A model generated the notes under the pieces. The model saw only the letters and a program-made list of their open reading frames with translations, was not told the DNA's origin and did no database searches. Below, piece by piece: positions 4,375-30,493 of a stretch of DNA of 36,431 nt. Within the stretch, counting starts at the first letter, position 1, and every line of letters begins with the position of its first letter. A program made the translations under genes and the position numbers. The stretch comes from Alphaproteobacteria bacterium (GTDB lineage: Bacteria > Pseudomonadota > Alphaproteobacteria > Rhizobiales > Beijerinckiaceae), in NCBI GenBank assembly GCA_021325385.1, contig JAJPHH010000103.1, positions 1 through 36,431 of the forward strand. Direction: 5' to 3'.

Positions 4375-4408
4375 CCTCTGCTCTCAACGAGACGGCGGCA
4401 ACAGGCGT

Positions 4409-14438: not shown

Positions 14439-14606
14439 AACCGTTCAACCGCCGAAAGGCCCATCTGTTCCTGCCCGATGACGAGCTCAAACGGCCGCTT
14501 TTCATGCCTCGCTATGCCGGAGTGTGGGCTTCCGGCCAGTCAGCTCAAAGGGGGCGTTCGCGTTAAGGCTCTGTGGCGTCCCCTGGGCCTACCCGAGCAG
14601 CAGGCT

Positions 14607-16079: not shown

Positions 16080-16133
16080 GATAGGCCTATCGGCGCTCTG
16101 AGAGCGGCCAGTCGTCTCCTTTCGGAGGCGACG
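16080..16133. promoter_or_regulatory. Cluster of palindromes between divergent genes
   Basis: Three symmetric elements lie in a row. GATAGGCCTATC (16080-16091) is a perfect palindrome touching the flavoprotein start codon. CGCTCTGAGAGCG (16094-16106) is a perfect 6-bp inverted repeat around one G. GTCGTCTCC/GGAGGCGAC (16111-16132) is a stem with a TTTC loop. In a divergent promoter region these could be operators, or 5'-leader structures for the flavoprotein mRNA. No adjacent regulator gene is present to assign them to. Confidence 0.4.
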
Positions 16134-16238
16134 CCATCTCGGTCGAACCTCGATTCCGAACGGCCAATATAGCCGAGATAGCGCTTGATTCCGAGGCTCG
16201 TTCAGGTTTTGCTTCGCAACTCCTCCGAAGGTGCAAGC

Positions 16239-17033
16239 ATGACGAGAGCCGTAGCGTCGCCTTTCCGAGAACTCCTCGAACTGAGAGGGAGGACCGCTCT
16301 CGTGACCGGCGCTTCCGCCGGAATTGGTCGAGGCGTCGCTTGCCGTTTAGCAGAGGCTGGCGCGGCAGTCGCGCTGCATTACCGCGGCGGCAAGGAAAGC
16401 GCCTTGGCGGCGGCGCAAGAGATCCGAGACGCCGGCGGAAAGGCGATCGCGGTCAATGCCGAGTTGACGGATCCGGCTTCCGTCGAAGAGGCGGTTCGCC
16501 TGGCGACGGAGCAACTCGGCCCGATCGACATTCTCGTCAACAATGCCGCGCGGCAGACCCATGCCGGGTTCGAAGATATGGCGCTCGAAGAATGGCGCGA
16601 GATGCTCGCGGCCAATCTCGATGGCGTCTTTATCACGACAAAGCTCGTCACAGCACAGATGATAAAGCGCGGCGTCGGAGGCGCCGTCGTCAACATCGCC
16701 TCGATCGAAGGCCTGCAGCCGGCGCCGACTCATGGCCATTACGCGGTATCGAAGGCCGGACTGATCATGTTTACGCGCGCCGCCGCCCTTCAGTTCGGCC
16801 GCCACAATATTCGCGTCAACGCCGTATCGCCCGGCGTCATTTACCGCGACGGCATCGAGGCGGCTTGGCCGGAAGGCGTGAAGCGGTGGATGCAGGCAGC
16901 GCCGCTCGGCCGAATGGGCGAGAACGAGGACGTCGCGGACGCGGTGCTGTTTCTCGCCGCGCCGGCTTCGCGATGGATCACCGGCGCCAATCTGGTCGTC
17001 GACGGCGGCGTGACAGCGACTCCCTCATTCTGA
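16239..17033 (+). CDS. SDR-family oxidoreductase (1)
   Basis: The 264-residue classical short-chain dehydrogenase has a cofactor site TGASAGIGRG (about residues 24-33), a structural NNAA motif (ILVNNAARQ) and NIASIEG with the catalytic-serine region. YAVSK supplies the active Tyr/Lys, and NAVSPGVIYRDG follows. The C-terminus has the typical ITGANLVVDGG. ALHYRG at the end of strand 2 includes an Arg, suggesting NADP(H) preference. ATG 16239 follows GAAGG by 7 nt; the frame is open 18 codons further upstream without a ribosome site. It is 10 bp upstream of a second SDR and divergent from the flavoprotein. Substrate unknown; sugar or polyol oxidation is common in the family. Confidence 0.88.
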   Translation: MTRAVASPFRELLELRGRTALVTGASAGIGRGVACRLAEAGAAVALHYRGGKESALAAAQEIRDAGGKAIAVNAELTDPASVEEAVRLATEQLGPIDILVNNAARQTHAGFEDMALEEWREMLAANLDGVFITTKLVTAQMIKRGVGGAVVNIASIEGLQPAPTHGHYAVSKAGLIMFTRAAALQFGRHNIRVNAVSPGVIYRDGIEAAWPEGVKRWMQAAPLGRMGENEDVADAVLFLAAPASRWITGANLVVDGGVTATPSF

Positions 17034-17043
17034 TGGGCGCAAA

Positions 17044-17832
17044 ATGACCATTCTCGCTGATACGGCGCTTCGTGGAAGAACAATCCTCATTACCGGTGCG
17101 GCGAGAGGCATCGGCGCCGGTATTGTCGAGGCCGCCTTGGCGGCCGGAGCCGCTGTCGCGGTTGTGGATTTGGATGGCCGCTCGGCAGAAGAGACCGCTC
17201 GGCGGCTGGACCCGTCGGGCCGTCGTACATTAGCTGCTGCGGCGGATGTGTCGAACCCAGCGAGCCTTGCGCAAGCGGCGGAGCTCGCCGAAGCTCGCTT
17301 GGGCCCGCTGAGCGGCTGGGTCAACAATGCCGGCATCGTACAGATGATCGCCGCGAAAGATATTTCGCCAGAGGCCTGGCGCCGCGAGTTCGAGATCAAT
17401 GTCGCGGGCGTCATGAACGGCGCTCAGGCCGCCTATCGCGCTTTCGCCGGCAGGGGCGGCGCGATCGTCAACATCGCGTCCAATGCCGGCAAGGTCGGCT
17501 TTCCGAATATGGCCGCGTACAACGCGACCAAGGCGGCGGTCATCAATCTCACCCGATCGCTGGCGCGCGAATGGGCCGCCGAGCGGATCAACGTCAATGC
17601 GGTTTGTCCGGGCAGCGTCGCAACGCCCATGCTGCGCGGCGTCGCCGACCGCCTCGCCGCGGAAACCGGCAGGAGCAGCGACGCCCTCTTCGCCGGCATG
17701 GTTCCCGCGCAACTCGGCCGTCATATTCAGCCGATCGAAGTCGGCCGCGTGGTCGTCTTCTTGTTGACCGGGGCGGCCGAAATCATCCGTGGACAGGCGA
17801 TCAACATTGACGGCGGCGAGACCCCATATTGA
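17044..17832 (+). CDS. SDR-family oxidoreductase (2)
   Basis: The 262-residue classical SDR has TGAARGIGAG (about 18-27), WVNNAGI (about 95), NIASNAGKVGFPNMAAYNATK (catalytic Ser, Tyr and Lys) and NAVCPGSVATPML. The C-terminus is IIRGQAINIDGG. An Asp at the end of strand 2 (AVVDLDG) favours NAD(H). It forms a two-gene unit with the preceding SDR, whose stop is 10 bp upstream. It ends 3 bp before the convergent amidohydrolase stop, with no room for a terminator. The pair probably catalyses successive or alternative oxidations of the same kind of substrate, for instance a sugar released from a nucleoside. That link is inference from location only. Confidence 0.88.
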   Translation: MTILADTALRGRTILITGAARGIGAGIVEAALAAGAAVAVVDLDGRSAEETARRLDPSGRRTLAAAADVSNPASLAQAAELAEARLGPLSGWVNNAGIVQMIAAKDISPEAWRREFEINVAGVMNGAQAAYRAFAGRGGAIVNIASNAGKVGFPNMAAYNATKAAVINLTRSLAREWAAERINVNAVCPGSVATPMLRGVADRLAAETGRSSDALFAGMVPAQLGRHIQPIEVGRVVVFLLTGAAEIIRGQAINIDGGETPY

Positions 17833-17835
17833 GGC

Positions 17836-19365
17836 TCACGCGCGATTGGCTCCCGGCCAAGCCGGCATGTCGCCAGCATAGCGATTGAGCCCGATGTCGC
17901 GCAGCGTCGAGCGGCGATGAATCTCGGCGAAATACGGTTCGAAGACGCGATTCTTCTCCTCGATCCGGCTATGAGCGCCAAGATAAGCCGGAACGGCCTC
18001 GCGCGCTTCGCGTAGAATTTCGTTTTCGTCGATGCGCGTCAGTTTGCCGTCGCGCAGAACGATTTCGCCGTTGATCATGACCAGTTCGAGAGAGGATCCA
18101 TTCTCGGCATAGACGAGATGCTTGCGCGGATCGTTCATCGGGGTGAAAACGACATTATCAGTCCTGAGCACGATGAGATCGGCGCGCTTGCCGACTTCCA
18201 AAGACCCTGTCTCTTCTTCCAGCATGGCGCTGCGCGCGCCGCCGATCGTTGCTGCGCGCATGATGTCCTCGGCGCCGAGCCAGCGCGAATAGTCCGGGCC
18301 CGAGACGGCGTGAACAAGCGCGGCGACGCGCATGACGTCAAAAATGCGCAACGTATCGTTGCTGGACGCGCCGTCGGTACCGAGCGCAATCGTTACGCCA
18401 GCGTCGAGCAGTCGCCGCAGCGGCGCGACGCCTGCGCCGAGCTTTTGGTTCGAAATCGCGTTATAGACGACGGAGCAGCGTGCGTCGCCCATCAGCGCGA
18501 TATCGTCGTCGCTCACCCAGACGGAATGGGCGATGGTCACATTGCGGTTGAGAACGCCCAGATCCCGCAAGTAGCGGATGAGGGTCTTGCCGAAGAGCTC
18601 CGGCCCGGTGACCGCCTGGGTTTTCGTTTCCAGCACATGAGTATGGAAGGGAACGCGATGGCGCAAGGCCATCTCGCTGCAGGCCTCGAGGAGATCGACC
18701 GTGCAGCGTTGCGGCGCGGAAGGCGAGATCATGTAGCGCAGGCGGCCGGCTTTTCCGTCAAAGGCGGCGAAGGCGGCTTCGCAATAATCGGCATAGGCGG
18801 CGCCGGTGACCATCGCGCCGCCGGCGAGAAGCGCCTGCAACTCCACAGGCACGATTTCGCGCGCGAAGGGCAGCGTATCGAGAACCGGGATATTGATGAT
18901 GGAATTGGTCACATTGGCGCGCAGGCCGGCCGCTTCATAGGCGGCGAACACCACGCCCAATCGCTCGATCGAAAGGACCGGCGGATCGAAAAAGCAGTCG
19001 CAAATGGTGGTGACGCCGCCTTTGATCGATTCGATCGCGACCAGCATGGAGCGCAAGTAAAGCAGTCGCTCCGGGATCGGCGGAGCCATGAGAAGCGGAT
19101 AGGCGTAGAGAAGCCAGACTTCGAGCGGCATTTTCTCGTACCGCCCTTTGAAGAATTGCTCGCTCGAATGAAGGTGTCCGTTGACCAGGCCGGGCATTAC
19201 GAGCCGATCGCGTCCGTCGATAAGACTCGCATCGCCTGTTGGGCCGAGGTTCGGGCCGATCGCGGCGATGCGCTCATCCTCGATGAGGACATCGCCGGTA
19301 AAGGGCTCATCGCCATGCGGCCCGCCCATGGCGAGGATGGTCGCGCCGCGAATGAGAGTCTTCAT
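17836..19365 (-). CDS. Amidohydrolase-superfamily deaminase (AtzA/MtaD/SsnA-like)
   Basis: The 509-residue metal-dependent TIM-barrel hydrolase has metal ligands GHLHSS (about 64-69), FHTHVLE (about 242) and IAHSVWVS (about 275). LGTDGASSND (about 325-334) carries the catalytic Asp. An N-terminal beta-sandwich strand (LIRGATILAM) and a C-terminal one (GKRADLIVLRTDN) complete the fold. The family includes guanine, 8-oxoguanine, cytosine and S-adenosylhomocysteine/methylthioadenosine deaminases and triazine hydrolases. It is the last minus-strand gene of the nucleoside transporter run, 66 bp after the VOC gene. I therefore infer a nucleobase or nucleoside deaminase. The exact substrate cannot be told. 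The ribosome site before ATG 19365 is weak. Confidence 0.83.
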   Translation of the reverse strand: MKTLIRGATILAMGGPHGDEPFTGDVLIEDERIAAIGPNLGPTGDASLIDGRDRLVMPGLVNGHLHSSEQFFKGRYEKMPLEVWLLYAYPLLMAPPIPERLLYLRSMLVAIESIKGGVTTICDCFFDPPVLSIERLGVVFAAYEAAGLRANVTNSIINIPVLDTLPFAREIVPVELQALLAGGAMVTGAAYADYCEAAFAAFDGKAGRLRYMISPSAPQRCTVDLLEACSEMALRHRVPFHTHVLETKTQAVTGPELFGKTLIRYLRDLGVLNRNVTIAHSVWVSDDDIALMGDARCSVVYNAISNQKLGAGVAPLRRLLDAGVTIALGTDGASSNDTLRIFDVMRVAALVHAVSGPDYSRWLGAEDIMRAATIGGARSAMLEEETGSLEVGKRADLIVLRTDNVVFTPMNDPRKHLVYAENGSSLELVMINGEIVLRDGKLTRIDENEILREAREAVPAYLGAHSRIEEKNRVFEPYFAEIHRRSTLRDIGLNRYAGDMPAWPGANRA

Positions 19366-19431: not shown

Positions 19432-19857
19432 TCAGTCCAGTTTTCCCGGCGCGCCGCCCTCGCGCCAAGCGTAAAGCTCCCAAACCTCATCGTCAGGGCC
19501 CGCGAAATAGCAGCAATATGCATTCCAGGCGTAGTCCGCAGGGGGCGCCAGGAACGGCGTCCCCTTAGCCGAGAGCTCGTGATAGGCGGCGTCGAGTTCT
19601 TCAGGCGAAGGCAACTTTACGGCGATGCAGGCCTTGTGCGCGCCAGCGCCGCGCATGTTGGAAATGCGGACATGCCGGCTGATATGATTGATGTCCCAAA
19701 GCGCGAGCGTAAGGCCCGCGCCGGAGAAATCCGCGAAGCCCTCGGCCCGATGCGCGAGCTTGAAGCCAAGCTTGTCGACATAGAAACGGATCGAGCGTTC
19801 GAGGTCCGCACACAGAATGCAGACGTCGCTGATGGCGTAGCGCTGAGCGAAATCCAT
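19432..19857 (-). CDS. VOC-superfamily (glyoxalase/bleomycin-resistance fold) protein
   Basis: The 141-residue protein has the two beta-alpha-beta-beta-beta modules of the vicinal-oxygen-chelate fold. Module 1 is ISDVCILCADLERSIRFYVDKLGF with HRAEGFADFSGAGLTLALWD. Module 2 begins KACIAVKLPSPEELDAAYHEL and ends CCYFAGPDDEVWELYAW. The final Glu (DEVWELY) is at the usual metal-ligand position. The ATG at 19857 is preceded by GGAG 5-6 nt upstream and sits 8 bp after the permease stop, so it belongs to the transporter operon. Functions in the family range from lyases and dioxygenases to antibiotic binding. An operon role in transforming the imported compound is likely but undefined. Confidence 0.82.
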   Translation of the reverse strand: MDFAQRYAISDVCILCADLERSIRFYVDKLGFKLAHRAEGFADFSGAGLTLALWDINHISRHVRISNMRGAGAHKACIAVKLPSPEELDAAYHELSAKGTPFLAPPADYAWNAYCCYFAGPDDEVWELYAWREGGAPGKLD

Positions 19858-19865
19858 CCTTCTCC

Positions 19866-20762
19866 TCAATAATCGCGCAGTTCTCCGAAGGAGCTGGCCG
19901 CCTTGGCGCCGCCGCGAAAGCGCGCGCTGATCCAAATGCCGAGGACGGTCGCAAGATAGGGCAGGGCCAGGAGGAGATCGTTCGGCACCCGATCGCCGAA
20001 GGCGAGTTGAGCGCGGATGCCGATCGCCCCGACGATGGCAAAAAAGAGCGCGGCGGCGGCCGAGCCGATCGGGTGGCCCGCGCCGAAAATCACTGCCGAA
20101 AAAGCCATGAAGCCCCGTCCGGCGGTCATGCCGTAGGCGAAGATGGTCAGGCTGCCGAGCGCGAGCTCGGCGCCGCCAAGCGCGCACAGCACGCCACCGA
20201 GGCAAAGCGCAATCAGACGCATGCGAGCCGGGCTGACGCCGACGCTACGAGCCGCGAAGGGATGCTCGCCAGAGGCGGAAAGCTGAAGCCCGAACCGCGT
20301 GCGACGGAGAAGCGCCCATAGGCCGAACACGACGAAAGGCATAGCCGCGACAAGTACGGATAAGACGCCAAAATCGCCAAAGTACGGACCGAGCCGCGGC
20401 AGTCCATAGGGGGCGTTGACGGTCGCTTGGCTGCCATAGATCGCCTGCACGGCGAGATCGGTTCCGCCGAGACCTAAGCCCGTGAGGCCTAGACCGGCGA
20501 TGATGGGATTGGCGCGCAGCCTTTCGACCACGAACCAGAGAAGCGCGGAAGCGAGGACGCACAGCGCAACCGCCAGGACCAACCCGAAAAGGAGCGACCC
20601 GGTTTGGACCAGGCCGAGGACCGCGGCGCAACAGCCGATGATCATCAACCCCTCGAGTCCGAGGTTCCAGACGCCCGCGCGCTGCGCCAGCACGCCCGCC
20701 ATGGTCACATAGACGAGCGGCGTTCCATAACGGAGCGTGGCGATGACGAATTCCTCCATCAT
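19866..20762 (-). CDS. Nucleoside-type ABC transporter permease 2 (NupQ/YufQ type)
   Basis: The 298-residue polytopic protein starts MMEEFVIATLRYGTPLVYVTMAGVLAQRAGVWNLGLEGLMIIG, a signature of the second permease of BMP-type (PnrA/NupN) nucleoside transporters. Later landmarks are SGEHPFAARSVGVSPARMRL (the cytoplasmic EAA-like loop) and AYGMTAGRGFMAFSAVIFGAG. The ATG at 20762 overlaps the stop of permease 1 (ATGATG over TGA), and AGAGGGG precedes it. It forms the membrane pore with permease 1. An open frame of other phase extends far upstream on this strand but is only a shadow. Confidence 0.88.
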   Translation of the reverse strand: MMEEFVIATLRYGTPLVYVTMAGVLAQRAGVWNLGLEGLMIIGCCAAVLGLVQTGSLLFGLVLAVALCVLASALLWFVVERLRANPIIAGLGLTGLGLGGTDLAVQAIYGSQATVNAPYGLPRLGPYFGDFGVLSVLVAAMPFVVFGLWALLRRTRFGLQLSASGEHPFAARSVGVSPARMRLIALCLGGVLCALGGAELALGSLTIFAYGMTAGRGFMAFSAVIFGAGHPIGSAAAALFFAIVGAIGIRAQLAFGDRVPNDLLLALPYLATVLGIWISARFRGGAKAASSFGELRDY

Positions 20763-21805
20763 GCCCCTCTGATCATGCGACGCCGAGCCGTCAGCCAGCC
20801 GAGCCCGGGCGCCGCACGCGCGGTGATAAAGAGAGCTATGGCTGCGTTGATGATGTCGATGGCCGCGGCGGGCAATCCGGCGAGGACCGGCAAATAGAGG
20901 CTGGCTGACGCCAGCCCTCCAAAGAACACCGAGACAATCGCCGCGCCGGAAATTGAGAGGCCCGCGACGAGCGCGATCAGAATGGCGGTGAAGCCGTGCG
21001 CCGGCAGAAAGCCGCTGACCAGTCTGCCATTCGGTCCGAGCACTTCGATCGTTCCGGCGAGGCCCGCCAGAGCGCCGCCCAGCACGAAGCCGGCAATTCC
21101 GAGCCGCGACATCCGCGCCCCTTGCCAAACGACCATCGTCGAATTGCGGCCGGCGAGGCCGGCGAGAACGCCGAAGGCGGTGCGGTTGACCAGCACCCAC
21201 ATCAGAACGCCTACGACGACCGCCGCGCCGACAATCGTCGGCGACAAGCCGACTTCGCTGCTGATCCGGTAGGCCGCGGCGACGGGCCGGCTGGCCATGA
21301 CCTGGCCCGTTCCAGACGGATCTTTCAAGACGCCGCCGGTCACATAAATGAGGATGAGGCCGGCGATAAAATTGCCCATCAGCGTCGTTATGACTTCGTC
21401 GGCGCCGGATCGCACGCGCAGCAGGCCTGGCCAAAGCGCCCAGACCGCCCCGCCGGCGACGCCGGCGATAAAGCAGAGCGGTACGACAAGCGCAGCGGGA
21501 TAGCCGTTCAGGAAATCGACGACGAAGGTCGTGGCAATGGCGCCGATATAGAATTGCCCTTGCGCGCCGACGTTGAAATAGCCGCTGCGAAACGAAATGA
21601 TGACGCCGGTCGCCGTGATGAAGAGCGGCATGGCCCAACGCAAGCTGCCTTCCCATGCGCCAGGATTGAGAAAAGCGCCGTCGGCGATGCTTTGGAACAT
21701 TTCCGGCGCCGAATAGCCGGCGAATTCAAAAATGACGCCGCAGAGGGCGAGGGCCAGGACCACGAAAGCGAGCGCGCGGGCGACGGCCAAGAGGCTGTCT
21801 TTCAT
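20759..21805 (-). CDS. Nucleoside-type ABC transporter permease 1 (NupP/YufP type)
   Basis: The 348-residue membrane protein has about 8-10 hydrophobic segments. Family landmarks are FNVGAQGQFYIGAI (about 77-90), RSGADEVITTLMGNFIAGL (about 131-149), GLAGRNSTMVVWQGARMSRLG, the coupling loop, and GFTAILIALVAGLSISGAA. It belongs to the BPD_transp_2 family and matches the larger first permease of BMP-type nucleoside transporters. It starts one base after the ATPase stop and overlaps permease 2 at its end, so all three are translationally coupled. Substrate class (nucleosides or purine/pyrimidine derivatives) is inferred from the BMP binding protein and the enzyme neighbours. Confidence 0.88.
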   Translation of the reverse strand: MKDSLLAVARALAFVVLALALCGVIFEFAGYSAPEMFQSIADGAFLNPGAWEGSLRWAMPLFITATGVIISFRSGYFNVGAQGQFYIGAIATTFVVDFLNGYPAALVVPLCFIAGVAGGAVWALWPGLLRVRSGADEVITTLMGNFIAGLILIYVTGGVLKDPSGTGQVMASRPVAAAYRISSEVGLSPTIVGAAVVVGVLMWVLVNRTAFGVLAGLAGRNSTMVVWQGARMSRLGIAGFVLGGALAGLAGTIEVLGPNGRLVSGFLPAHGFTAILIALVAGLSISGAAIVSVFFGGLASASLYLPVLAGLPAAAIDIINAAIALFITARAAPGLGWLTARRRMIRGA

Positions 21806-21806
21806 G

Positions 21807-23450
21807 TCAATGCGCTCCGGTCATTGCTGCGCCGACCTCGCCGAGACGATAGGGCGGCCGGAATTCCGCGACGATCCGTCCGGATAGCATGACGACGATT
21901 CGGTCGCAGATGTCGAAGAGTTCGTCGAGATCGGAGGAGATGATCAGCACGGCGCAGCCGCGGGCTCGCGCGTCGCGGAGCGCGCGCCAGACGAAGGCCG
22001 TCGCGCCGACGTCGAGGCCGCGCGTCGGTTGGGCGGCGATGATCAGCGAAGCATCCGCATCGATCTCGCGCGCCAAGATCAACTTCTGGGCGTTACCGCC
22101 GGAGAGCGAACCCGCGGCCTGCATCGTGGTGTGATAGCGGACGTCCCATTCTTTGAGTGAAGCATCGCAGGCGTTGCGGTACCAGGACGGATTGATCAGC
22201 CTGAGCGCAGGCCCGAGCAAAAGCTGGCGCGCCGACCAGTTCTCCCAGAGCGCGCTCGATAGGCTCAAACCTTCGCTGTTGCGCTCGAACGGTATGATGC
22301 GTAAGCCGCGCGCTCGACGCTCGCTGAGCGGCGTCTTGGTGACGTCCTTGCCTTCAAGGAGGATCTGGCCCGACCGCGCCTCGACCAGATTGGCCAAAAC
22401 GCGGACGAGCGTGCGTTGGCCATTGCCTTCGACGCCGGCGACGCCGACGATCTCGCCTCGCCCAATGCGTAGGCTCACTTCTTCCAGACCGGGCCCCTCG
22501 GAATCGGCCCGAGTGACCACGCGCTGCATCGCCAGAACAGGCGCAGCGTTGATTGCAGCCGCCGGGGCGGCGCCGGCAAGCGCATCGCCCGCGGTCGCGC
22601 CGACAAGCGCGGCCTCATCCGCGGCGATCTCCTTCTCCGCCTGCACGCCGATAATCGAGGCGGAAAGCCGCCGCGCATTCGTCGCGCCGACTGCGATTGG
22701 ACCTTCCACCAGTCGGCCGCCGCGCAGAACGCTGACCGTATCGGCGACGCCGAGCACTTCGCGGATTTTATGGAGGATGAGAATAACGGTGACGCCGCTC
22801 GCCTTCAGGCCTTTCAAACGCTCGAACAGCTTCTCGATTCCGCTCGGCGAAAGAACGGCCGTCGGCTCGTCCAGGATCAAGACTTTGGCGTCGGCGACCA
22901 GCGCGCGTGCAATCTCCACGCCCTGCTGGGCCTCGACCGGCAGGTCGCGGATGCGATCGCGTAAGCCGGCGCGCACACCCAGGTTTTCAAGATGTTTTTG
23001 CCAGCGCTTTTCGAGCCCGCGGCGAGAAAAGACCGGTCGGCCGCGCTCCGCGCCGAACTCCATGGACTCGGCGACGGTGAACGAGGGCGGCAGGGCGAAG
23101 CTCTGGTGCACCAATTCGACGCCCGCCGCGCGCGCCTGGCCGACATTTCCGGTTGGGATTTCGCGGCCGCCGATCGCGAGCGTTCCTGAAACAGGCTTGA
23201 CGATCCCGGCCGCGACGCGCGCGAACGTCGTCTTGCCCGCGCCGTTTTGTCCGACGACGGCGTGAATCAGTTTCGGAGCAAAAGCGAGGCTCACGCCGAC
23301 CAGCGCGGCGACCTCGCCGTATTGTACGGAGATGTCGCGACATTGCAGCGCGAAAGCCGTCGGCGCTTCAGCGAGCATCGCCTTGGTCACGGTCGCCTCA
23401 TCGCTGTCTCGCTGCTCTCGCGCAGACGGATATGGCCCCAACGCCTTCAT
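21807..23450 (-). CDS. Nucleoside-type ABC transporter ATPase, two domains (NupO/YufO type)
   Basis: The 547-residue protein has duplicated ABC domains. Domain 1 (about 35-265) has Walker A GQNGAGKTT, a signature region LPVEAQQGVEIARAL and Walker B VLILDEPTAVL. Domain 2 (about 305-540) has a degenerate P-loop GVEGNGQRT lacking the Lys, a good LSGGNAQK and an altered Walker B LIIAAQPTRGLD. These asymmetries are usual in the BMP transporter family. A low-complexity Ala-rich linker of about 35 residues separates the domains. The chosen ATG at 23450 has GGAG 4 nt upstream; a start about 24 codons in (MLAEAPTAF) is also possible. It lies 63 bp after the binding-protein gene. Confidence 0.88.
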   Translation of the reverse strand: MKALGPYPSAREQRDSDEATVTKAMLAEAPTAFALQCRDISVQYGEVAALVGVSLAFAPKLIHAVVGQNGAGKTTFARVAAGIVKPVSGTLAIGGREIPTGNVGQARAAGVELVHQSFALPPSFTVAESMEFGAERGRPVFSRRGLEKRWQKHLENLGVRAGLRDRIRDLPVEAQQGVEIARALVADAKVLILDEPTAVLSPSGIEKLFERLKGLKASGVTVILILHKIREVLGVADTVSVLRGGRLVEGPIAVGATNARRLSASIIGVQAEKEIAADEAALVGATAGDALAGAAPAAAINAAPVLAMQRVVTRADSEGPGLEEVSLRIGRGEIVGVAGVEGNGQRTLVRVLANLVEARSGQILLEGKDVTKTPLSERRARGLRIIPFERNSEGLSLSSALWENWSARQLLLGPALRLINPSWYRNACDASLKEWDVRYHTTMQAAGSLSGGNAQKLILAREIDADASLIIAAQPTRGLDVGATAFVWRALRDARARGCAVLIISSDLDELFDICDRIVVMLSGRIVAEFRPPYRLGEVGAAMTGAH

Positions 23451-23513: not shown

Positions 23514-24581
23514 CTAAAGCTTCGTGTCGAACGGCGGCTTCAGTGCGCCGGAGATGATGTCCGCTCTAGCCTTTTCGATATCCGGCCAAACGGATTTCGC
23601 TTTCTCGACGAGGTCTTTGGGACCTTGCTCCTGCCAGACCGGCGAAAGCACGAAATCGATCACGCCGGTGCCGAGCCCGGTCGCGAGATGGCCTCCTTTG
23701 AAGTCCGGCCCCAACGCTTTCGACACCTCGTTGTAGAGGGACTGACCGAAGTCTAGCTGCACAAGCGCGGCCACCGTCTTCGGCCCCACCTTGTATTGGG
23801 CCGGCGAGATCGCGCTCACCATCCGATCTTGGCCCTCGTTGGCCGCTTGGATGATGCCGGTATCGGTCGCCGCCGAGTCCGTCTGAATGTAGTCGATGCC
23901 GCTCTGGTACATCTGGCTGGCGATCTCGTGCCCCTTGGCCGGGTCCTGGAACGATCCGGCGAATGCGTGCGTGAACGTCGCATTGGGATTGACGGAGGCA
24001 ATGGCGGCTTTCAGCGCGTTCACGTCGGCGTTGAGCGGCGGCAGGCTGACGCCGCCGATATAGCCGATCTTGCCGGTCTTCGAGACCTTCGCCGCGAACA
24101 GTCCGGAAAGATAGCAGCCGAGATAGTAATCGTAAGAGACAGTCTCGAAGTTAGGGATCGGCGGCTCGATAGGATCGCCAAAAATCTGAATCCATTTGGT
24201 CTTGGGGTATTTGGGGGCCAGCGCCTTTATCGGCTCGGCGACTTCATTGAACGTCGCGGCGATGACCGCGGCGCCGGCGTCGGCGAGGCTCTTGAAGATC
24301 GTCCCGTAAGTCGCGGCGTCCTGCGCATAAATGGTGCGGATCGGGAATTTCTTCTCAGCCGACAGCTTCTTCAGCGCGCTGATCATGGAATCGATGGGTC
24401 CGTTATCGCCCGCCGCCTGGGTATGGACGAGAGCGACCAGACCGCTGTCCGCCGCCGCAGCAATTTCCGATTGGAAAAGAGCGCCGGCGCCGGCCAGCGT
24501 GGTCGCGCCCAACGACGTTTGCAGGAAGGTTCTGCGCGATAGGCCGTACCTCGTTCTTTCGTGATCAGACTTGTTTGTCAT
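23514..24581 (-). CDS. BMP-family ABC transporter substrate-binding protein (Tat-exported)
   Basis: The 355-residue protein of the basic-membrane-protein/PnrA family binds nucleosides or purine-like ligands in characterised members. The N-terminus holds a twin-arginine signal (LSRRTFLQTSLGATTLAGAG), so export in the folded state is expected, which is unusual for this class. The mature part has ALVHTQAAGDNGPIDSM, YYLGCYLSGLFAAKVSKTGKIGYIGG and DYIQTDSAATDTGIIQAANE, which fit the PBP1-like BMP fold. ATG 24581 follows GGGAGAG. The 242-bp gap upstream contains the same palindromic element as the promoter of the enzyme genes (24772-24787). The ligand is probably a nucleoside; modified or carbon-linked nucleosides remain possible. 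Confidence 0.9.
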   Translation of the reverse strand: MTNKSDHERTRYGLSRRTFLQTSLGATTLAGAGALFQSEIAAAADSGLVALVHTQAAGDNGPIDSMISALKKLSAEKKFPIRTIYAQDAATYGTIFKSLADAGAAVIAATFNEVAEPIKALAPKYPKTKWIQIFGDPIEPPIPNFETVSYDYYLGCYLSGLFAAKVSKTGKIGYIGGVSLPPLNADVNALKAAIASVNPNATFTHAFAGSFQDPAKGHEIASQMYQSGIDYIQTDSAATDTGIIQAANEGQDRMVSAISPAQYKVGPKTVAALVQLDFGQSLYNEVSKALGPDFKGGHLATGLGTGVIDFVLSPVWQEQGPKDLVEKAKSVWPDIEKARADIISGALKPPFDTKL

Positions 24582-24771
24582 GACGCTCTCCCTCTCCGCT
24601 GCGCGACTGCGCAGACCACACATAGTCCGTATTGAGCTTCGTCCCAATCGTCGGCGCGAAGGCCGCGCCGCGCTTCGTCGCTGTCGGGAACCGGCGATCT
24701 CGGCGCATGCCCGGGACGATCGATCGCATTCGCGTAACCCGGTTTCTTGCTACAGCCAACGATGCCGTATC

Positions 24772-24823: not shown

Positions 24824-26158
24824 CTAAGCTCGCCGGACGATACGCTCCCGCACGATAGGTCCTGACGCCCCGGCCGGCGCCGAAGCGATTTGAACCGCTG
24901 CACGGATGCGCTTAGCGGCGAGTTCGAAGCTCGGTTCGTCGCGCGCGTGAACCATGCAAAGCGGATTCGTATTGTCGACCGGGTCGCCAACCTGCGCAAA
25001 GCCGGTCAGGCCGACGGCGAGGTCAATGGCGTCGTCGGGCCGCGTGCGCCCGCCGCCCAGCGCGACCAGCGTCAGGCCAATCTCCTTGGCGTTCATGCCG
25101 GCGAGGAATCCCCGTTGCTCGGCGAAGACGGCGCGGACCACCGGCGCAGCGGGCAAATAGCGCGCAGCCTTTTCGAGGAAGTCGCTCGGCCCGCCCAACG
25201 CCTCGACCATGCGCGCAAAGCGCTCCGCCGCGCCGCCATTGTCGAGCATAGCGGCGGCGCGATTGCCGGCGACGGCGACTTCGGCCTCGATCCCGGCGAG
25301 GACGACCATTTCGGCGGTCAAGGCGAGGACGAGGTCGAGAACTCGCGGATCGCGATGCTTACCGGTAAGGAAATCGACCGCTTCGATCACCCCGACGGCG
25401 TTTCCAACGGCCGTCCCGAGCACCGAATCAAGATCGGTCACGAGCATCACGCTTGATGCGCCGGCGCGGGCCGAAACTTCGGCCATGCTGTTCGCAAGCC
25501 GTCTGGCGTCGTCGAGAGACGCCATGTAGGCGCCGGAGCCCGAGCCGACGGAAATGACCAGGCCGCGCGGCGCCGAAGCGAGCTTCTTCGAGAGAATGGA
25601 GCCCGTGATGAGCGGAACGCTTTCCACAGTCGCGGTCACGTCGCGCACATAGAAAAGCTTGCGATCCGCCGGAGCAAGATCAAGCGTCGGGCCGATTATC
25701 GCGCCGCCGACCTCGCGCACGGTCCGCATGAAAAGGTCCGGCGGAGGCGCCGTCTGGTAGCCGGGAATGGCGTCGAGCATGTCGACCTCGCCGGCGCAGT
25801 AATCGAGGCCTCGGCCGGAAAGATTGGGGACCAGCACGCCGCAGGCGGCCGCCAGAGGAACGACCAACAAGGTGATTTTCTCATCCCCGACGCCGCCGGA
25901 GGAGTGTTTGTCAATGAGACGAGCTTGGTTCGCCCCGAGCCCGGTCCAGTCGAGCACGCGACCGGAATCGCGCATCGCCAGCGTCAGCGCGGCGGTCTCG
26001 TCGATGGTCATTCCGTTGAGATAAGTCGCCATGAGAAAGGCGCCGATCTGACCTTCAGACACGTCGCCGCTCGTCGCGGCGTTGATGAAGGCCGCTATTT
26101 CGGCGTCGCTCAGGGCGACGCGGTCGCGCTTCTTGCGGATGATTTCCTGTGGCGGCAT
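24824..26158 (-). CDS. Thymidine/pyrimidine-nucleoside phosphorylase homologue with altered phosphate site
   Basis: The 444-residue protein is co-linear with E. coli DeoA along its whole length. Conserved are the N-terminal helical domain (QEIIRKKRD..LSDAEI), KHSSGGVGD (K84, H85, S86) and LSGRGL (S114). The base-binding residues R172, S187 and K191 (VRDVTATVESVPLITGSILSKK) are also kept. Two of the five phosphate ligands known in E. coli are changed. Ser95 is Ile95, and Thr123 in the near-invariant HTGGTLDK is Glu124 in YCAGEVDM. DVKVGSGAF has become SVGSGSGAY. It may therefore use water or another acceptor in place of phosphate, or bind without catalysis. It is 20 bp after the GMC gene in the same operon. 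Confidence 0.85.
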   Translation of the reverse strand: MPPQEIIRKKRDRVALSDAEIAAFINAATSGDVSEGQIGAFLMATYLNGMTIDETAALTLAMRDSGRVLDWTGLGANQARLIDKHSSGGVGDEKITLLVVPLAAACGVLVPNLSGRGLDYCAGEVDMLDAIPGYQTAPPPDLFMRTVREVGGAIIGPTLDLAPADRKLFYVRDVTATVESVPLITGSILSKKLASAPRGLVISVGSGSGAYMASLDDARRLANSMAEVSARAGASSVMLVTDLDSVLGTAVGNAVGVIEAVDFLTGKHRDPRVLDLVLALTAEMVVLAGIEAEVAVAGNRAAAMLDNGGAAERFARMVEALGGPSDFLEKAARYLPAAPVVRAVFAEQRGFLAGMNAKEIGLTLVALGGGRTRPDDAIDLAVGLTGFAQVGDPVDNTNPLCMVHARDEPSFELAAKRIRAAVQIASAPAGASGPIVRERIVRRA

Positions 26159-26178: not shown

Positions 26179-27804
26179 TCAGCCGGTCGCCTGCAGGACC
26201 ATGTCCGCGGCCTTCTCGCCGATCATGATTGTCGGCGCATTGGTGTTGCCGCTCGAAATAATCGGCATGATCGAGGCGTCGGCGACCCGCAATCCTTCGA
26301 GCCCGCGCACTTTCAGCTTTTCGTCGACGACCGCCATAGGATCGTGACCCATCTTGCAAGTCCCAACCGGATGCAGGGTCGTGCCGCTCGCGCCTTTGAG
26401 CCAATGACGCAAATCGGAGTCGGTGCGAAGCGCCGGGCCGGGCGCAAGCTCCTTGCCGAGGACGCCGGCGAAGGCCTTTTGCGCCATCACGTCGCGCAAC
26501 ATTCTGACCCCGGCGATCGTCGTTTGCTTGTCGAATTCCGTACCGAGATAGTTGGCGAATATCCGAGGCGGGTCCTCCGCCTTGGCCGAGCGCAGCATGA
26601 TCGCGCCGCGACTCTCAGGATTGAGCGGGCCGACCCGGATCGTGACGCCGTGATTATCTTCGACTCTCGCCTTATCGAAGAGTTTGGGCCAGTGGAGATT
26701 GGCGGTTTTCTCCAAGGCCGGCATGAAATGAGCCTGGATGTCGGGCGATTCCAGGCCGGGTCGAGATTTCAGAAACGCGCCGCCTTCATAGGGAAAGGTC
26801 GTCGCCACGCCCTCGCCGAACAGGAAACCGCGCAGGAGCGCGGGAACGAGTCGATCGACGCGCAAGTCGCTGTAGAGCGTTATCGGCTTGACGACTTGGT
26901 AAACCAGGCAGACGTCGACATGGTCTTGCAGATTCTTGCCGACGCCGGGCAGATGGCAGGCGAGCTTTATTCCGTGCGCCGCAAGCTCGTCCGCGTCGCC
27001 CACGCCGGACAGCATAAGTATCTGGGGCGAGTTGACCGCGCCCGCCGAAAGAATGATTTCTCGGTCGGCGCGCGCGCGAAGGCTCCGCCCGCCTTGCGTA
27101 TATTCCACCGCGACCGCTCTGCCGCCCTCGACGACGATTCTTTGGGTCAATGCATGCGTGGCGATGGCGAGATTCGGCCGATCGAGGATGGGGTGAAGGA
27201 AGGCTTTCGACGCGCTGCAGCGCTTGCCGTCGCGAATCGTGAAATCGTAGCGCCCGAATCCTTCCTGCTCTTCGCCGTTGAAATCGTCGTTGACTGGATG
27301 GCCTGCCTGCCGGCCGGCTTCGACGAAGAGCTCGAAGAGCGGGTTCTTGCCGCGCGCTCGGCAAACGGTCAGCGATCCTTCCGCGCCGTGAAAGGCGTCG
27401 CGCCTCTCGACATGGCCCTCGGATTTGCGGAAATAGGGCAGGATTTCCGAATAGCTCCAACCAGACAAGCCGAGCTGCGACCAGCGGTCATAATCGCGAC
27501 GGTTGCCGCGCACATAGATCATGCCATTGATGGTCGACGAGCCGCCCAAGACCTTGCCGCGCGGCCAATAGATACGTCGCCCGTTCAGCCCTGGTTCTGG
27601 CTCGGTTTTGTATTGCCAATTGTAGATGCGCGAATGCATGAGCTTGCCCATGAGCATGGGCAATTGTACGAGCGGGTGACGATCCGGTCCGCCGGCTTCT
27701 ATCAACAGAACGCTCCGCCGCGGCTCGGCCGAGAGGCGATTGGCGATGACGCAGCCAGCCGATCCGGCGCCGATGACGATATAGTCGAAGACGTTCTTCT
27801 CCAT
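26179..27804 (-). CDS. GMC-family FAD oxidoreductase (choline dehydrogenase-like)
   Basis: The 541-residue flavoprotein alcohol dehydrogenase/oxidase has the ADP-binding motif YIVIGAGSAGCVIANRLS (residues 8-25) and GMC signature 1, PRGKVLGGSSTINGMIYVRG. Signature 2 is SAGAVNSPQILMLSG. The C-terminal catalytic His is in TTLHPVGTCKMG and the partner Asn in SSGNTNAPTIMIGEKAAD. The family oxidises primary alcohols such as choline, glucose, aryl or polyethylene-glycol ends. Here it lies between the UDG-like and phosphorylase-like genes, 7 bp after the former. I infer that it oxidises a hydroxyl on the nucleoside sugar or on a hydroxymethyl base. GTG 27807 is an alternative start directly before the ATG. 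No signal peptide is present. Confidence 0.87.
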   Translation of the reverse strand: MEKNVFDYIVIGAGSAGCVIANRLSAEPRRSVLLIEAGGPDRHPLVQLPMLMGKLMHSRIYNWQYKTEPEPGLNGRRIYWPRGKVLGGSSTINGMIYVRGNRRDYDRWSQLGLSGWSYSEILPYFRKSEGHVERRDAFHGAEGSLTVCRARGKNPLFELFVEAGRQAGHPVNDDFNGEEQEGFGRYDFTIRDGKRCSASKAFLHPILDRPNLAIATHALTQRIVVEGGRAVAVEYTQGGRSLRARADREIILSAGAVNSPQILMLSGVGDADELAAHGIKLACHLPGVGKNLQDHVDVCLVYQVVKPITLYSDLRVDRLVPALLRGFLFGEGVATTFPYEGGAFLKSRPGLESPDIQAHFMPALEKTANLHWPKLFDKARVEDNHGVTIRVGPLNPESRGAIMLRSAKAEDPPRIFANYLGTEFDKQTTIAGVRMLRDVMAQKAFAGVLGKELAPGPALRTDSDLRHWLKGASGTTLHPVGTCKMGHDPMAVVDEKLKVRGLEGLRVADASIMPIISSGNTNAPTIMIGEKAADMVLQATG

Positions 27805-27811
27805 CACGCCG

Positions 27812-28678
27812 CTACCATGAAACGACGCCTGCGTTCATTGCGGCGAGGCGCTGATTGGCGAGGGCGAAGGGATTGGGCCGGGCGAGGACGGCGTCGCCGC
27901 GCGCAGGATGCTCTCGCAGGATGCACGCGACGTCGCCTCGCGGCGTCCCGCTTTCTTGGTTTTGCCCAATCCCGCTTGCGGCCAGAATCTCCGCCGCCTG
28001 GCGGCCGAAGCCGATGAAAACGATCGGCGCGCCGCGGCTGGCGAGGAAACGGGAGACTGCGACGATGAAGGGCCGCCAGAGCGGAAAATGGCCACGAGTC
28101 TGGTGCGGATCGCCGTCCACGGAGAAGCGGCTGAGGGTCAACGCCGAATTCAGAAGAAGCACGCCTTGGCCGACCCATCGATCGGCGATCGCCGAAGCCG
28201 GCTCGATCGGGAAGGCGCCCGTTTCGATTTCGTCGCGAAGGCGCGGCCATTCGGCGATCGAGCGAGCATAGGCGTCGTCGCCCGATCGCGCCGCCGCAAT
28301 GAGAAGCATGAAAGTCCTGACGCTAACCGAGAACATCTTCTCGAGCTCGCGCCATTCCGCGACGTTGCCGGCTTCGAATGCTCGGCCGGTCGAAAAGGCG
28401 CCGCAGGGATAGGGATCTTGCCCGAGCACGACCACCCTCACGTCTTTCGGCGCGAGGTCATCGAAGGCGCGAAAGATATGCGCAGCTCTTGGCGCGCCCG
28501 GATAATGTTTGCCCCTGCGCGCGGGAAAAACCGGCTCCCACGGCTCCAGCGTCAGTCCCGGATCCACGGCTTCGAAGCCGAGGTCTGAACATCCGCACGC
28601 CTCGCGCCACGCTGGATCGAGATCGCCTCGCCAGCCGGCGAGGATTTCGCGCATTGCGTCTCTGAGTAAGACCGCCAT
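27812..28678 (-). CDS. Uracil-DNA glycosylase-superfamily protein, divergent family-1 type
   Basis: The 288-residue protein has the family-1 UDG core. The water-activating loop reads VVVLGQDPYP (D88, Y90), and F101 (GRAFEAG) is the base-stacking Phe. LLLNSALT has the uracil-reading N177, and H257 lies in REHPARG. Two parts differ from UNG: PYH is PYP, and the HPSPLS intercalation loop is replaced by HPARGDA. About 60 extra residues sit at the N-terminus. It is the first gene of the nucleoside operon, with a promoter 25-60 bp upstream. A DNA-repair role would be odd in this context. It may cleave uracil from a free nucleoside or nucleotide, or simply be a variant repair enzyme. No clear ribosome site precedes the ATG. 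Confidence 0.8.
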   Translation of the reverse strand: MAVLLRDAMREILAGWRGDLDPAWREACGCSDLGFEAVDPGLTLEPWEPVFPARRGKHYPGAPRAAHIFRAFDDLAPKDVRVVVLGQDPYPCGAFSTGRAFEAGNVAEWRELEKMFSVSVRTFMLLIAAARSGDDAYARSIAEWPRLRDEIETGAFPIEPASAIADRWVGQGVLLLNSALTLSRFSVDGDPHQTRGHFPLWRPFIVAVSRFLASRGAPIVFIGFGRQAAEILAASGIGQNQESGTPRGDVACILREHPARGDAVLARPNPFALANQRLAAMNAGVVSW

Positions 28679-28874: not shown

Positions 28875-29591
28875 ATGACGGTAGTTGAGGAAAGGCCGAA
28901 GCAGGAGACGCGCGCCCGCCGCGTTCGCGAGCGCAACCGCCAGAGAATTCTCGATGCGTCGATCGAAATCTTCGCTCGTAAAGGGTTCGACGGCGCCAGC
29001 ATCGCGGAAATTGCGGAGCGCTCCGGACTGCCAAAGGCGAACGTATACTACTATTTCCCAAGCAAGGAGGATATCTACTCGACCATCATCGACAATTTGA
29101 TTGCGGAATGGGACGCCGCTCTCGAGCATATCGACATCGATCGAGATCCCGCCGACGCTTTGGCGGGCTATATTCGCGCCAAAATGGAGTTTTCGTACAA
29201 GCGAACCGCCCAATCCAAGATGTTCGCCAACGAAATTGTGCATGGCGGCCGCTTCCTGTCGCGCGCCAACCGATCGCATATGCGCGCGATCACCATTGAA
29301 AAGGGAAAAATATTCGAGGCTTGGGCGAGAGCCGGCAAGATGGATCGGCTCGATCCTACGCACGTGTTCATACTGCTTTGGGGCTCCACCCAGTTCTATG
29401 CCGACTTTGACGCCATGGTGGAGAGCATGTTGAATACAGGCCGCCTGACGCGCGAGCAGTTCAACGTCGCCACCGAGACGATCGTCCATATCGTCTTGAA
29501 AGGTTGCGGCGTCCGGAGCGGCGCAAGGCCTTCAGCGGGGCGCCCCAACTCTCACGGCAGCCGCGCCAGCCGTTCAGTGAGGAGCGCGTAA
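28875..29591 (+). CDS. TetR-family regulator with RutR (YcdC)-type ligand domain
   Basis: The 238-residue repressor has a TetR helix-turn-helix at about 22-70 (ILDASIEIFARKGFDGASIA, then LPKANVYYYFPSKEDIY). The C-terminal domain aligns along its length with E. coli RutR: FILLWGSTQFYADFD versus the RutR IWASTQHYADF. W79 and Q173 fall at the positions of RutR W77 and Q171, recalled as uracil contacts. A pyrimidine base is therefore a likely effector. It is divergent from the nucleoside operon and shares a 196-bp promoter region containing a RutR-like site. The last 25 residues are a low-complexity Arg/Ser tail that overlaps the convergent nucleoside hydrolase by 40 bp. Confidence 0.88.
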   Translation: MTVVEERPKQETRARRVRERNRQRILDASIEIFARKGFDGASIAEIAERSGLPKANVYYYFPSKEDIYSTIIDNLIAEWDAALEHIDIDRDPADALAGYIRAKMEFSYKRTAQSKMFANEIVHGGRFLSRANRSHMRAITIEKGKIFEAWARAGKMDRLDPTHVFILLWGSTQFYADFDAMVESMLNTGRLTREQFNVATETIVHIVLKGCGVRSGARPSAGRPNSHGSRASRSVRSA

Positions 29592-30493
29592 AAGGCGTCC
29601 GCGTCCACTTCGCGGAGGAATAGGGCGTTTGGAGGACGGTCTGTCACCCTCCACCAATCGACCACCGACATGCCCGTCGTGTAAGTTCCTGCTGTTTCAA
29701 TCACGACGTTCACGTTGCGGCCGCCAAACAGCTCCGGCTTTAGAAGATAGGCGATGGCGCATGGGTCGTGGAGCGGCGCGCCCGGCCAGCCATATTTGGC
29801 CAAATCGAATGCTTCCGAGTACGAGAGCATGTCAGCGGCGGCGGTGGCGCATCTGCGCCCCGTCGCCCTCAAAGCGGCAAGCCTCGCGGGCGTACTGAGG
29901 CACTGGTGCGTGACATCCATCGACGCCATTGTCAGAGGTACGCCGCTCGACAGCACCACGTCGGCAGCTTCAGGGTCGACATATTCGTTGAAAGCTGCAG
30001 CCGGCGTAATGTTCCCGTTCTCCGACCATGTGCCGAGGATCGAAACCATCTCTCGGATGCGCGGCGCGATATCGGGTGCTTCGACGAGCGCCATGCCGAT
30101 ATTGGTGAGCGGGCCAAGCGTGACGATCGTAATCGAGCCCGATTCGGCGGCGCGAAGGGTCTCAATCAAATATTGGACGCCATGCATGCTCTGGACGGGC
30201 ATTGTGGCCGGCGGAAGCTTGGGCCCATCGAGTCCTGTGGGTCCGTGAACGTGTTCGGCGGTGACCAGTCGCCGTCTCATCGGTCTAGCGCATCCCGCGT
30301 AAAGCGGCACGTCGGTCCGTCCTGCGAGCTCGAGCACTTGTCGCGCATTGTTGGTCGTGTTGGCCAGAGGGACGTTGCCCGCCACCGTTACGACAGCCAA
30401 AACGTCCAGCTCCTCCGGCGAGGCGAATGCGAGCAGAAGGGCCACCGCATCGTCCTGGCCGGGATCGGTATCGATGATGATTTTTCGCGTCAT
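29552..30493 (-). CDS. Inosine-uridine-preferring-type nucleoside hydrolase
   Basis: The 313-residue enzyme hydrolyses the N-glycosidic bond of ribonucleosides to base plus free ribose. The calcium site is IIIDTDPGQDDAVALLLA (D10, D14, D15), completed by H242-D243 (PLHDPCAIAYLL). VAGN (N40), the base-side loop HVHGPTGLDG (H81, H83), VTLGPLTNIG and AAFNEYVDPEAADVVL are all present. Length and motifs indicate an active enzyme. Pyrimidine versus purine preference is not decided. The gene is convergent with, and slightly overlaps, the TetR gene. It supplies a phosphate-free cleavage route next to the altered phosphorylase homologue. No RutR-like site was seen upstream. Confidence 0.92.
   Translation of the reverse strand: MTRKIIIDTDPGQDDAVALLLAFASPEELDVLAVVTVAGNVPLANTTNNARQVLELAGRTDVPLYAGCARPMRRRLVTAEHVHGPTGLDGPKLPPATMPVQSMHGVQYLIETLRAAESGSITIVTLGPLTNIGMALVEAPDIAPRIREMVSILGTWSENGNITPAAAFNEYVDPEAADVVLSSGVPLTMASMDVTHQCLSTPARLAALRATGRRCATAAADMLSYSEAFDLAKYGWPGAPLHDPCAIAYLLKPELFGGRNVNVVIETAGTYTTGMSVVDWWRVTDRPPNALFLREVDADAFYALLTERLARLP

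Follow-up and report, generated by a model that had tools for sequence, protein, structure and literature searches.

A thymidine phosphorylase homologue and its clade

The stretch of DNA analysed here, called the window, comprises the 36,431 nucleotides of contig JAJPHH010000103.1 (assembly GCA_021325385.1) from an alphaproteobacterium of the Beijerinckiaceae. On its reverse strand it encodes a variant thymidine phosphorylase (TP)-like protein, the window protein, which lies among genes for a nucleoside-type importer and for nucleoside breakdown (Table 1). A reading made from the letters of the DNA, the sequence-only reading, had placed a TP homologue at 24824..26158, and its frame, coordinates and strand were confirmed. 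The frame is open throughout and codes for 444 residues of the DeoA type. The protein exceeds the gathering scores of the Pfam domains Glycos_trans_3N, Glycos_transf_3 and PYNP_C, its AlphaFold2 model has a mean pLDDT of 95.6, and its nearest solved folds are thymidine phosphorylases. These three domains and this fold place it in the NP-II superfamily. It is 46-47% identical to the TPs of E. coli and Salmonella, and 51% identical to a second, ordinary DeoA encoded in the same genome (C158:7369-8673).

The profile models place the protein close to DeoA but outside its strict definition. With the DeoA equivalog model TIGR02643 it scores 525.8 against a curated cut-off of 570.7, and the best member of the clade described below reaches 550.8, while 22 canonical DeoA proteins from the same genomes (27 named genomes) pass. 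The window protein does pass NF004490, the laxer NCBI model for TP (512.9 against 269), and TIGR02644, the pyrimidine-nucleoside phosphorylase (PyNP) model (434.6 against 409), the latter being a broad subfamily model that is uninformative on phosphate use. It falls far short of the AMP phosphorylase model TIGR03327 (180 against 535). Solved PyNPs (1brw, 7m7k) have the fold in common with the window protein but are only 35-40% identical to it, and AMP phosphorylases (4ga4, 4ga5) share the NP-II fold at 25-27% identity.

In a maximum-likelihood tree of 86 rows, which omits AMP phosphorylase and is drawn with midpoint rooting, the window protein falls into a single clade of 30 rows (support 100/99), the other 56 rows being TP and PyNP. 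The sequence-only reading had asked whether YCAGEVD forms its own clade, and the window protein does belong to a distinct one. The window protein lies in subgroup A (14 rows with DY[CG]xGE, support 100/100), and subgroup B holds 16 rows with G[HY]TGGE (100/99). Six PyNP-like rows from Lentisphaerota, Gastranaerophilales, Acidobacteria and Spirochaetales keep the Thr123 and the DVK motif discussed below and lack the insertion that marks the clade. In five chosen pairs of clade members dN/dS was 0.06-0.21, indicating purifying selection. A pseudogene or chance drift is ruled out by these ratios, by the open frame and by changes that are fixed in 30 distinct rows.

The clade is rare and mostly confined to the Hyphomicrobiales. 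An order-level search of 397 genomes with a four-row profile (the window protein, both Bauldia genes and the Methylocapsa gene) returned 11 clade loci in 10 genomes, the window's own included, with scores from 832 down to 644 bits; below them came a gap, ordinary DeoA reaching at most 582 bits. The clade gene of Methylocapsa S129 (G010, L024) came from a separate search and is not among these matches. At E <=1e-172, no clade member beyond the window's genome was found in 385 genomes of the class and 299 of the phylum, and the matches in the two other genomes that passed this threshold (L175, L176) were ordinary DeoA with the Thr kept and no insertion. In most genomes of the order, class and phylum searches, only the best four or five first-look candidates were scored. 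A contig scan of 84,980 species gave 312 relatives, and clade motifs were present in 30 of the best 80 that were examined, so that at least this many members exist. They come from Afifellaceae, Bauldia, Xaviernesmea, Rhizobium, Agrobacterium, Neorhizobium, Shinella, Methylocapsa and others, most of which we take to belong to the Hyphomicrobiales, as well as from Herbiconiux (Actinomycetota) and a Chloroflexi metagenome-assembled genome (L067), whose contig may be misbinned. Additionally, 33 plasmid records matched each of two queries. Among the three examined, the Rhizobium etli 8C-3 plasmid carries a clade member with its cluster, and those of Rhizobium sp. CB3171 and Shinella sp. PSBB067 carry ordinary DeoA. 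The clade gene of Ferranicluibacter rubi is broken by an in-frame stop (L079 2859-4169), and that of Shinella sp. UYSO24 is split (L090 9752-11091), the deoB match there being in three pieces.

Residues of the phosphate side and the base side

The clade is defined most clearly by a position that in E. coli TP is occupied by Thr123. In all 30 clade rows this position is Glu, and in all 56 other TP and PyNP rows it is Thr; as aligned, this split is far beyond chance. The window protein has Glu124 here (codon 25789-25787, GAG), in agreement with the sequence-only reading, which had also recognized that the canonical HTGGTLDK reads YCAGEVDM. The glycine-rich loop of human TP, residues 144-154, has been proposed as a phosphate binder (PMC2719695). 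By our own numbering, loop S114-E124 of the window protein would be its equivalent, the human loop ending at this same Thr.

The second mark of the clade is a one-residue insertion, Glu93, which is found in 30/30 clade rows and is a gap in 56/56 of the others. It alters the reading of the neighbouring Ser95. The sequence-only reading had taken Ser95 to be replaced by Ile95; because the inserted Glu shifts the alignment (GDEKITL against GDVTSL), both phmmer against 1azy and 4x46 and MAFFT pair Ser95 with Thr96 instead. This position is Thr or Ser in all 30 clade loci, so the hydroxyl residue is preserved. Further changes absent from the earlier list are Lys126 to Met or Leu (Met127 in the window protein), Gln to Pro157, and the conversion of DVK into [STC]V[GNP], in which the Asp has become Ser203 and the Lys Gly205. 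At Glu93, Glu124, Met127, Pro157, Ser203 and Gly205 the 30 clade rows have no residue in common with the 56 others. Four canonical residues, Thr123, Lys126 and both Asp and Lys in DVK, occur without exception in the other rows (56/56) and are replaced in 30/30 clade rows, and the clade's changes bring in negative charge and take away positive charge.

In contrast to these changes, the base side is intact. His85, Arg171/172, Ser186/187 and Lys190/191 are invariant, as is Lys84, and the alignments confirmed that the window protein keeps K84, H85, S86, R172, S187 and K191, as had been noted from the sequence. Thus the window protein shares with DeoA (EC 2.4.2.4; E. coli 1azy, Salmonella 4x46/5ey3, human TP 2wk6) the fold, the three Pfam domains, the base-site His, Arg, Ser and Lys, the KHS motif, Ser113 (as Ser114) and Ser95 (as Thr), but differs from it in the Glu for Thr123, the inserted Glu93, the Lys126 replacement, the altered DVK and Pro157. 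The phosphate ligands of E. coli TP are, as we take it, K84, S86, S95, S113 and T123. The sequence-only reading had described the phosphate site as broken. The loss of Thr123 stands, but it is the only one of these five ligands to be lost, and since Thr96 fills the place of Ser95 the site is better described as rebuilt.

Table 1. Genes of the window and active-site codons of the thymidine phosphorylase-like gene
Feature	Position	Strand	Basis or remark
Variant thymidine-phosphorylase-like protein, 444 aa, NP-II fold	24824..26158	-	Pfam, phmmer, AlphaFold2 model
K84-H85-S86, retained	25901..25909	-	alignment
Glu93 codon, one-residue insertion marking the clade	25880..25882	-	alignment
Thr96 codon, aligned with Ser95 of E. 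coli TP	25871..25873	-	alignment
Glycine-rich loop S114-E124, SGRGLDYCAGE	25787..25819	-	alignment
Glu124 codon GAG, opposite Thr123 of E. coli TP	25787..25789	-	alignment
S203-V204-G205, replacing canonical Asp-Val-Lys	25544..25552	-	alignment
GMC-family FAD oxidoreductase	26179..27807	-	20 bases upstream of the TP-like gene
Uracil-DNA-glycosylase-like protein	27812..28678	-	GQDPY, LLLN, HP motifs; between GMC and TetR genes
TetR-family regulator, RutR-like	28875..29591	+	153 bits, below RutR cut-off 368
RihA-like pyrimidine nucleoside hydrolase	29552..30493	-	308 bits, below RihA cut-off 433
BMP/PnrA-type substrate-binding protein, nucleoside-type ABC importer	23514..24647	-	library match
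Double ABC ATPase of BMP-type importer	21807..23450	-	library match
ABC permease 1	20759..21805	-	Pfam
ABC permease 2	19866..20759	-	Pfam
VOC (glyoxalase fold) protein	19432..19857	-	Pfam
Amidohydrolase, COG0402 deaminase type	17836..19365	-	HxxE and metal-ligand motifs
Pair of short-chain dehydrogenases, transcribed away from the cluster	16185..17832	+	similar ones beside several loci of subgroup A

Gene neighbourhoods and the place of deoB

The neighbourhoods were compared by tblastn, the queries being the proteins encoded in the window, and the comparison covered 29 clade loci (the window counted) and 18 canonical loci. The commonest partner of the clade gene is the VOC protein, present in 24/29 clade loci and 0/18 canonical ones, followed by the amidohydrolase (19/29 against 0/18), the RutR-like TetR regulator (17/29 against 0/18) and the RihA-like nucleoside hydrolase (8/29 against 0/18). 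The BMP protein was found in 11/29 clade loci and, at 26-27% identity, in two canonical loci. The canonical loci also gave distant permeases (27-35%) in eight or nine cases and a short-chain dehydrogenase (SDR) in two. Fisher tests gave p values of 7e-9 for VOC, 6e-6 for the amidohydrolase and 2e-5 for TetR, to be read with the caution that the tests are not independent, the loci being related to one another and differing in length. Some loci are short, and absences of partners are partly due to contig ends. Ten clade loci, from Rhizobiaceae or Rhizobiales, have a Pot-type importer instead, together with a neighbouring cytosine deaminase (PRK07572); no canonical locus has this deaminase, and the R. 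etli 8C-3 plasmid locus has the same layout. The GMC gene recurs in L061, L062 and L070 (75-78% identity), L064 holding the end of one, and SDRs like those of the window adjoin several loci of subgroup A.

The amidohydrolase is assigned to the deaminase type by its HxxE and metal-ligand motifs, as we take these to be defined. The uracil-DNA-glycosylase-like protein, encoded again in L061, L062 and L070, is divergent (65 bits, cut-off 186). Its GQDPY, LLLN and HP motifs presumably have the roles of uracil-DNA-glycosylase motifs, and the protein might perhaps act on free nucleosides or bases.

Canonical deoA and the clade gene differ in their relation to deoB, whose mutase handles deoxyribose-1-phosphate. 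In 22 of the 27 named genomes there is a DeoA above the TIGR02643 cut-off, and 20 of these 22 lie on the contig with the deoB match, 19 of them within 8 kb of it. In 22 genomes deoB was matched (21 times above the cut-off, once in fragments), and of their 24 clade loci none is on the deoB contig. In G000 the clade gene and deoB are on separate contigs, and in G327, which is a single contig, the clade gene is 1.7 Mb from deoB and the ordinary deoA adjoins deoB. The clade thus differs from DeoA in having mostly another neighbourhood that is not beside deoB. DeoB was not found in the genomes of L067, L072, L073, L074 and L075, five of the 27 named ones. The Herbiconiux among these (L072-L074) have another TP-family gene, and the genome of L075 has an ordinary DeoA truncated at a contig end. 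In an overlapping set of 11 genomes it was not found in G368 and G304, the latter apparently the genome of L075. An argument that cells without DeoB would lack phosphorolysis genome-wide was considered and proved only partly useful, DeoB being missing in few genomes and DeoC present in 11/11. The present argument rests on the linkage to deoB, not on its presence, and many of the assemblies are fragmented.

Several other features were seen in these regions. In the Afifellaceae genome of L062 (G419), a second deoB lies beside a shortened DeoA remnant with a stop (C49:8070-9961). In L061, also from Afifellaceae, a YkoF/ABC_cobalt/CbiQ set adjoins the cluster (13604-17575), and this set, we presume, resembles the YkoEDCF hydroxymethylpyrimidine transporter. 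Between the GMC and BMP genes of the same locus lies a gene for a NIPSNAP-family protein of 107 aa (4069-4392), which by tblastn is found in the subgroup A loci L061, L062, L064 and L070 and not in the window. The end of the window carries an M81/MlrC-type metallopeptidase gene (34635-36110, reverse strand).

Proposed function and its alternatives

The window protein keeps the base side of a TP (His85, Arg172, Ser187, Lys191) and has its phosphate-loop side recast in one fixed set of changes, and most clade loci form their own cluster for the import and breakdown of nucleosides, apart from deoB. The swap of Thr for Glu in the phosphate loop, together with a breakdown cluster of its own, suggests that the protein may cut nucleosides without phosphate. 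We therefore favour, tentatively and at a little short of an even chance, a pyrimidine-nucleoside-cleaving NP-II enzyme that would no longer use phosphate. Most likely this would be a hydrolase in which Glu124 serves as the general base or as the nucleophile. The cytosine deaminase, the RihA-like hydrolase and the regulator resembling RutR suggest that its substrate is a pyrimidine nucleoside.

Departure of the base would be aided by His85, Arg172 and Lys191, as in TP. Attack on C1' could be made by water activated by Glu124 or, as a second option, by Glu124 itself, giving a covalent pentosyl-enzyme that would then be hydrolysed; either way the base and the (deoxy)ribose would both be released free. 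The amidohydrolase, and in Rhizobiaceae also the cytosine deaminase, would deaminate the base or the nucleoside. The dehydrogenases beside the gene may take up the released sugar, a route that is only suggestive. The known oxidative deoxyribose pathway was considered as the fate of this sugar and set aside for want of a direct link: the accessible part of PMC6365646 has no words starting with nucleoside, thymidine or GMC, and it describes how deoxynucleosides are used in Klebsiella through DeoABD and an aldolase, which is the phosphorolytic route.

There are parallels for such a mechanism in other folds. In the NP-I fold, the pair of MTA phosphorylase and MTA/SAH nucleosidase illustrates how a phosphorylase fold becomes a hydrolase by placing a Glu where the phosphate would be; the fold is unrelated and, on the side of the window protein, the parallel is inferred and one of idea only. 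RihA-type pyrimidine nucleoside hydrolases, which are metal-dependent and of an unrelated fold, probably catalyse the same reaction as that proposed here, and one is encoded in the same cluster. Nucleoside 2'-deoxyribosyltransferases use a Glu nucleophile on C1'. In DNPH1, according to PMC12751057, Glu104 plays this part. These two are precedents in idea for an attack by Glu124, from folds unrelated to NP-II. Use of Mg-PRPP in the manner of AnPRT, which shares the NP-II fold, is not favoured, the Asp of DVK being lost rather than gained.

Several observations weigh against cleavage without phosphate. Of the five ligands named above, all but Thr123 have been retained or conservatively exchanged (as K84, S86, Thr96 and S114), and the site might therefore still take up phosphate; moreover, the RihA-like hydrolase in 8/29 loci makes a second hydrolase less obviously needed. 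The clade rows also differ from the others outside the phosphate loops, for example at positions 47, 77, 170 and 246, and some of the divergence may have to do with matters other than phosphate. The cluster is not universal: by tblastn L066, L072 and L073 share no cluster gene, L067 has only a distant GMC (30%), and no amidohydrolase was found within about 9 kb on either side in L061, L062 and L064. The ordinary deoA of the window's genome is itself off the contig of deoB (C158 and C135). Furthermore, DeoC was found in 11/11 genomes tested and DeoB in 9/11, and therefore most of those cells could in principle make use of the products of phosphorolysis.

For these reasons, the kept ligands and the hydrolase often already present in the cluster, the main rival is that the protein is still a phosphorylase with a changed preference for substrate or pH, which we hold to be unlikely. 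Glu124, perhaps protonated or paired with Lys84 or Lys94, would then sit beside phosphate held by K84, S86, Thr96 and S114; the overall identity to TP and the score above the NF004490 cut-off agree with this. Against it are the four positions fixed in every other row and replaced in every clade row, with the attendant shift in charge, and the lack of any clade gene near deoB. The sequence-only reading had counted a carboxylate in the phosphate pocket as evidence against phosphorolysis. The invariant Glu, the loss of two Lys strictly conserved in the other rows, the gain of a second Glu, the catabolic neighbours of most of the genes, the distance from deoB and the intact base site all lend it support, but they do not separate a hydrolase, a transferase and an altered phosphorylase with certainty. 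It had also looked to alignment for other residues in the roles of Ser95 and Thr123: Thr96 takes the first, and the second position is Glu throughout the clade.

A bolder proposal, which we consider more doubtful still, is that a hydrolase or deoxyribosyl transferase arose within the NP-II fold by placing a Glu at the point of phosphate attack and, acting through a covalent pentosyl-Glu124, forms the core of an undescribed pyrimidine-nucleoside pathway of soil- and plant-associated Hyphomicrobiales, whose components would be the importer, the VOC protein, the deaminase-type amidohydrolase and the RutR-like regulator. It also seems improbable that the enzyme is a pentosyl transferase which, via a Glu124-pentose intermediate, serves another acceptor, by base exchange or with an alcohol, amine or small molecule. 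The kept base site with a carboxylate in the phosphate loop, the Glu nucleophile of the deoxyribosyltransferases and the unexplained VOC, GMC and SDR enzymes of the cluster would suit it, but the neighbours are catabolic (importer, deaminase, nucleoside hydrolase, cytosine deaminase) and the sequence points to no acceptor. A non-catalytic nucleoside-binding or regulatory protein, an option raised by the sequence-only reading to which the loss of one phosphate-site residue might point, is very improbable because the catalytic residues, Lys84 included, are conserved under purifying selection, in genes mostly encoded within catabolic clusters.

Overall, the phosphate site of this clade of DeoA paralogues has changed at several positions together, the changes being fixed across two subclades, and most members have a cluster of their own; no description of the variant or the cluster was found in the open-access literature searched, subscription papers being mostly outside that search. 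Automatic annotation would probably call the window protein a thymidine phosphorylase because it passes NF004490. The clade marks an uncharacterised cluster for nucleoside catabolism, and it cautions against taking counts of deoA for phosphorolysis. We know of no hydrolase of the NP-II fold. If the proposed hydrolysis is true, the clade would supply one, with an ordinary DeoA of about 50% identity in most of the same cells as a built-in control, and would thereby offer a natural experiment in the conversion of a phosphorylase into a hydrolase.
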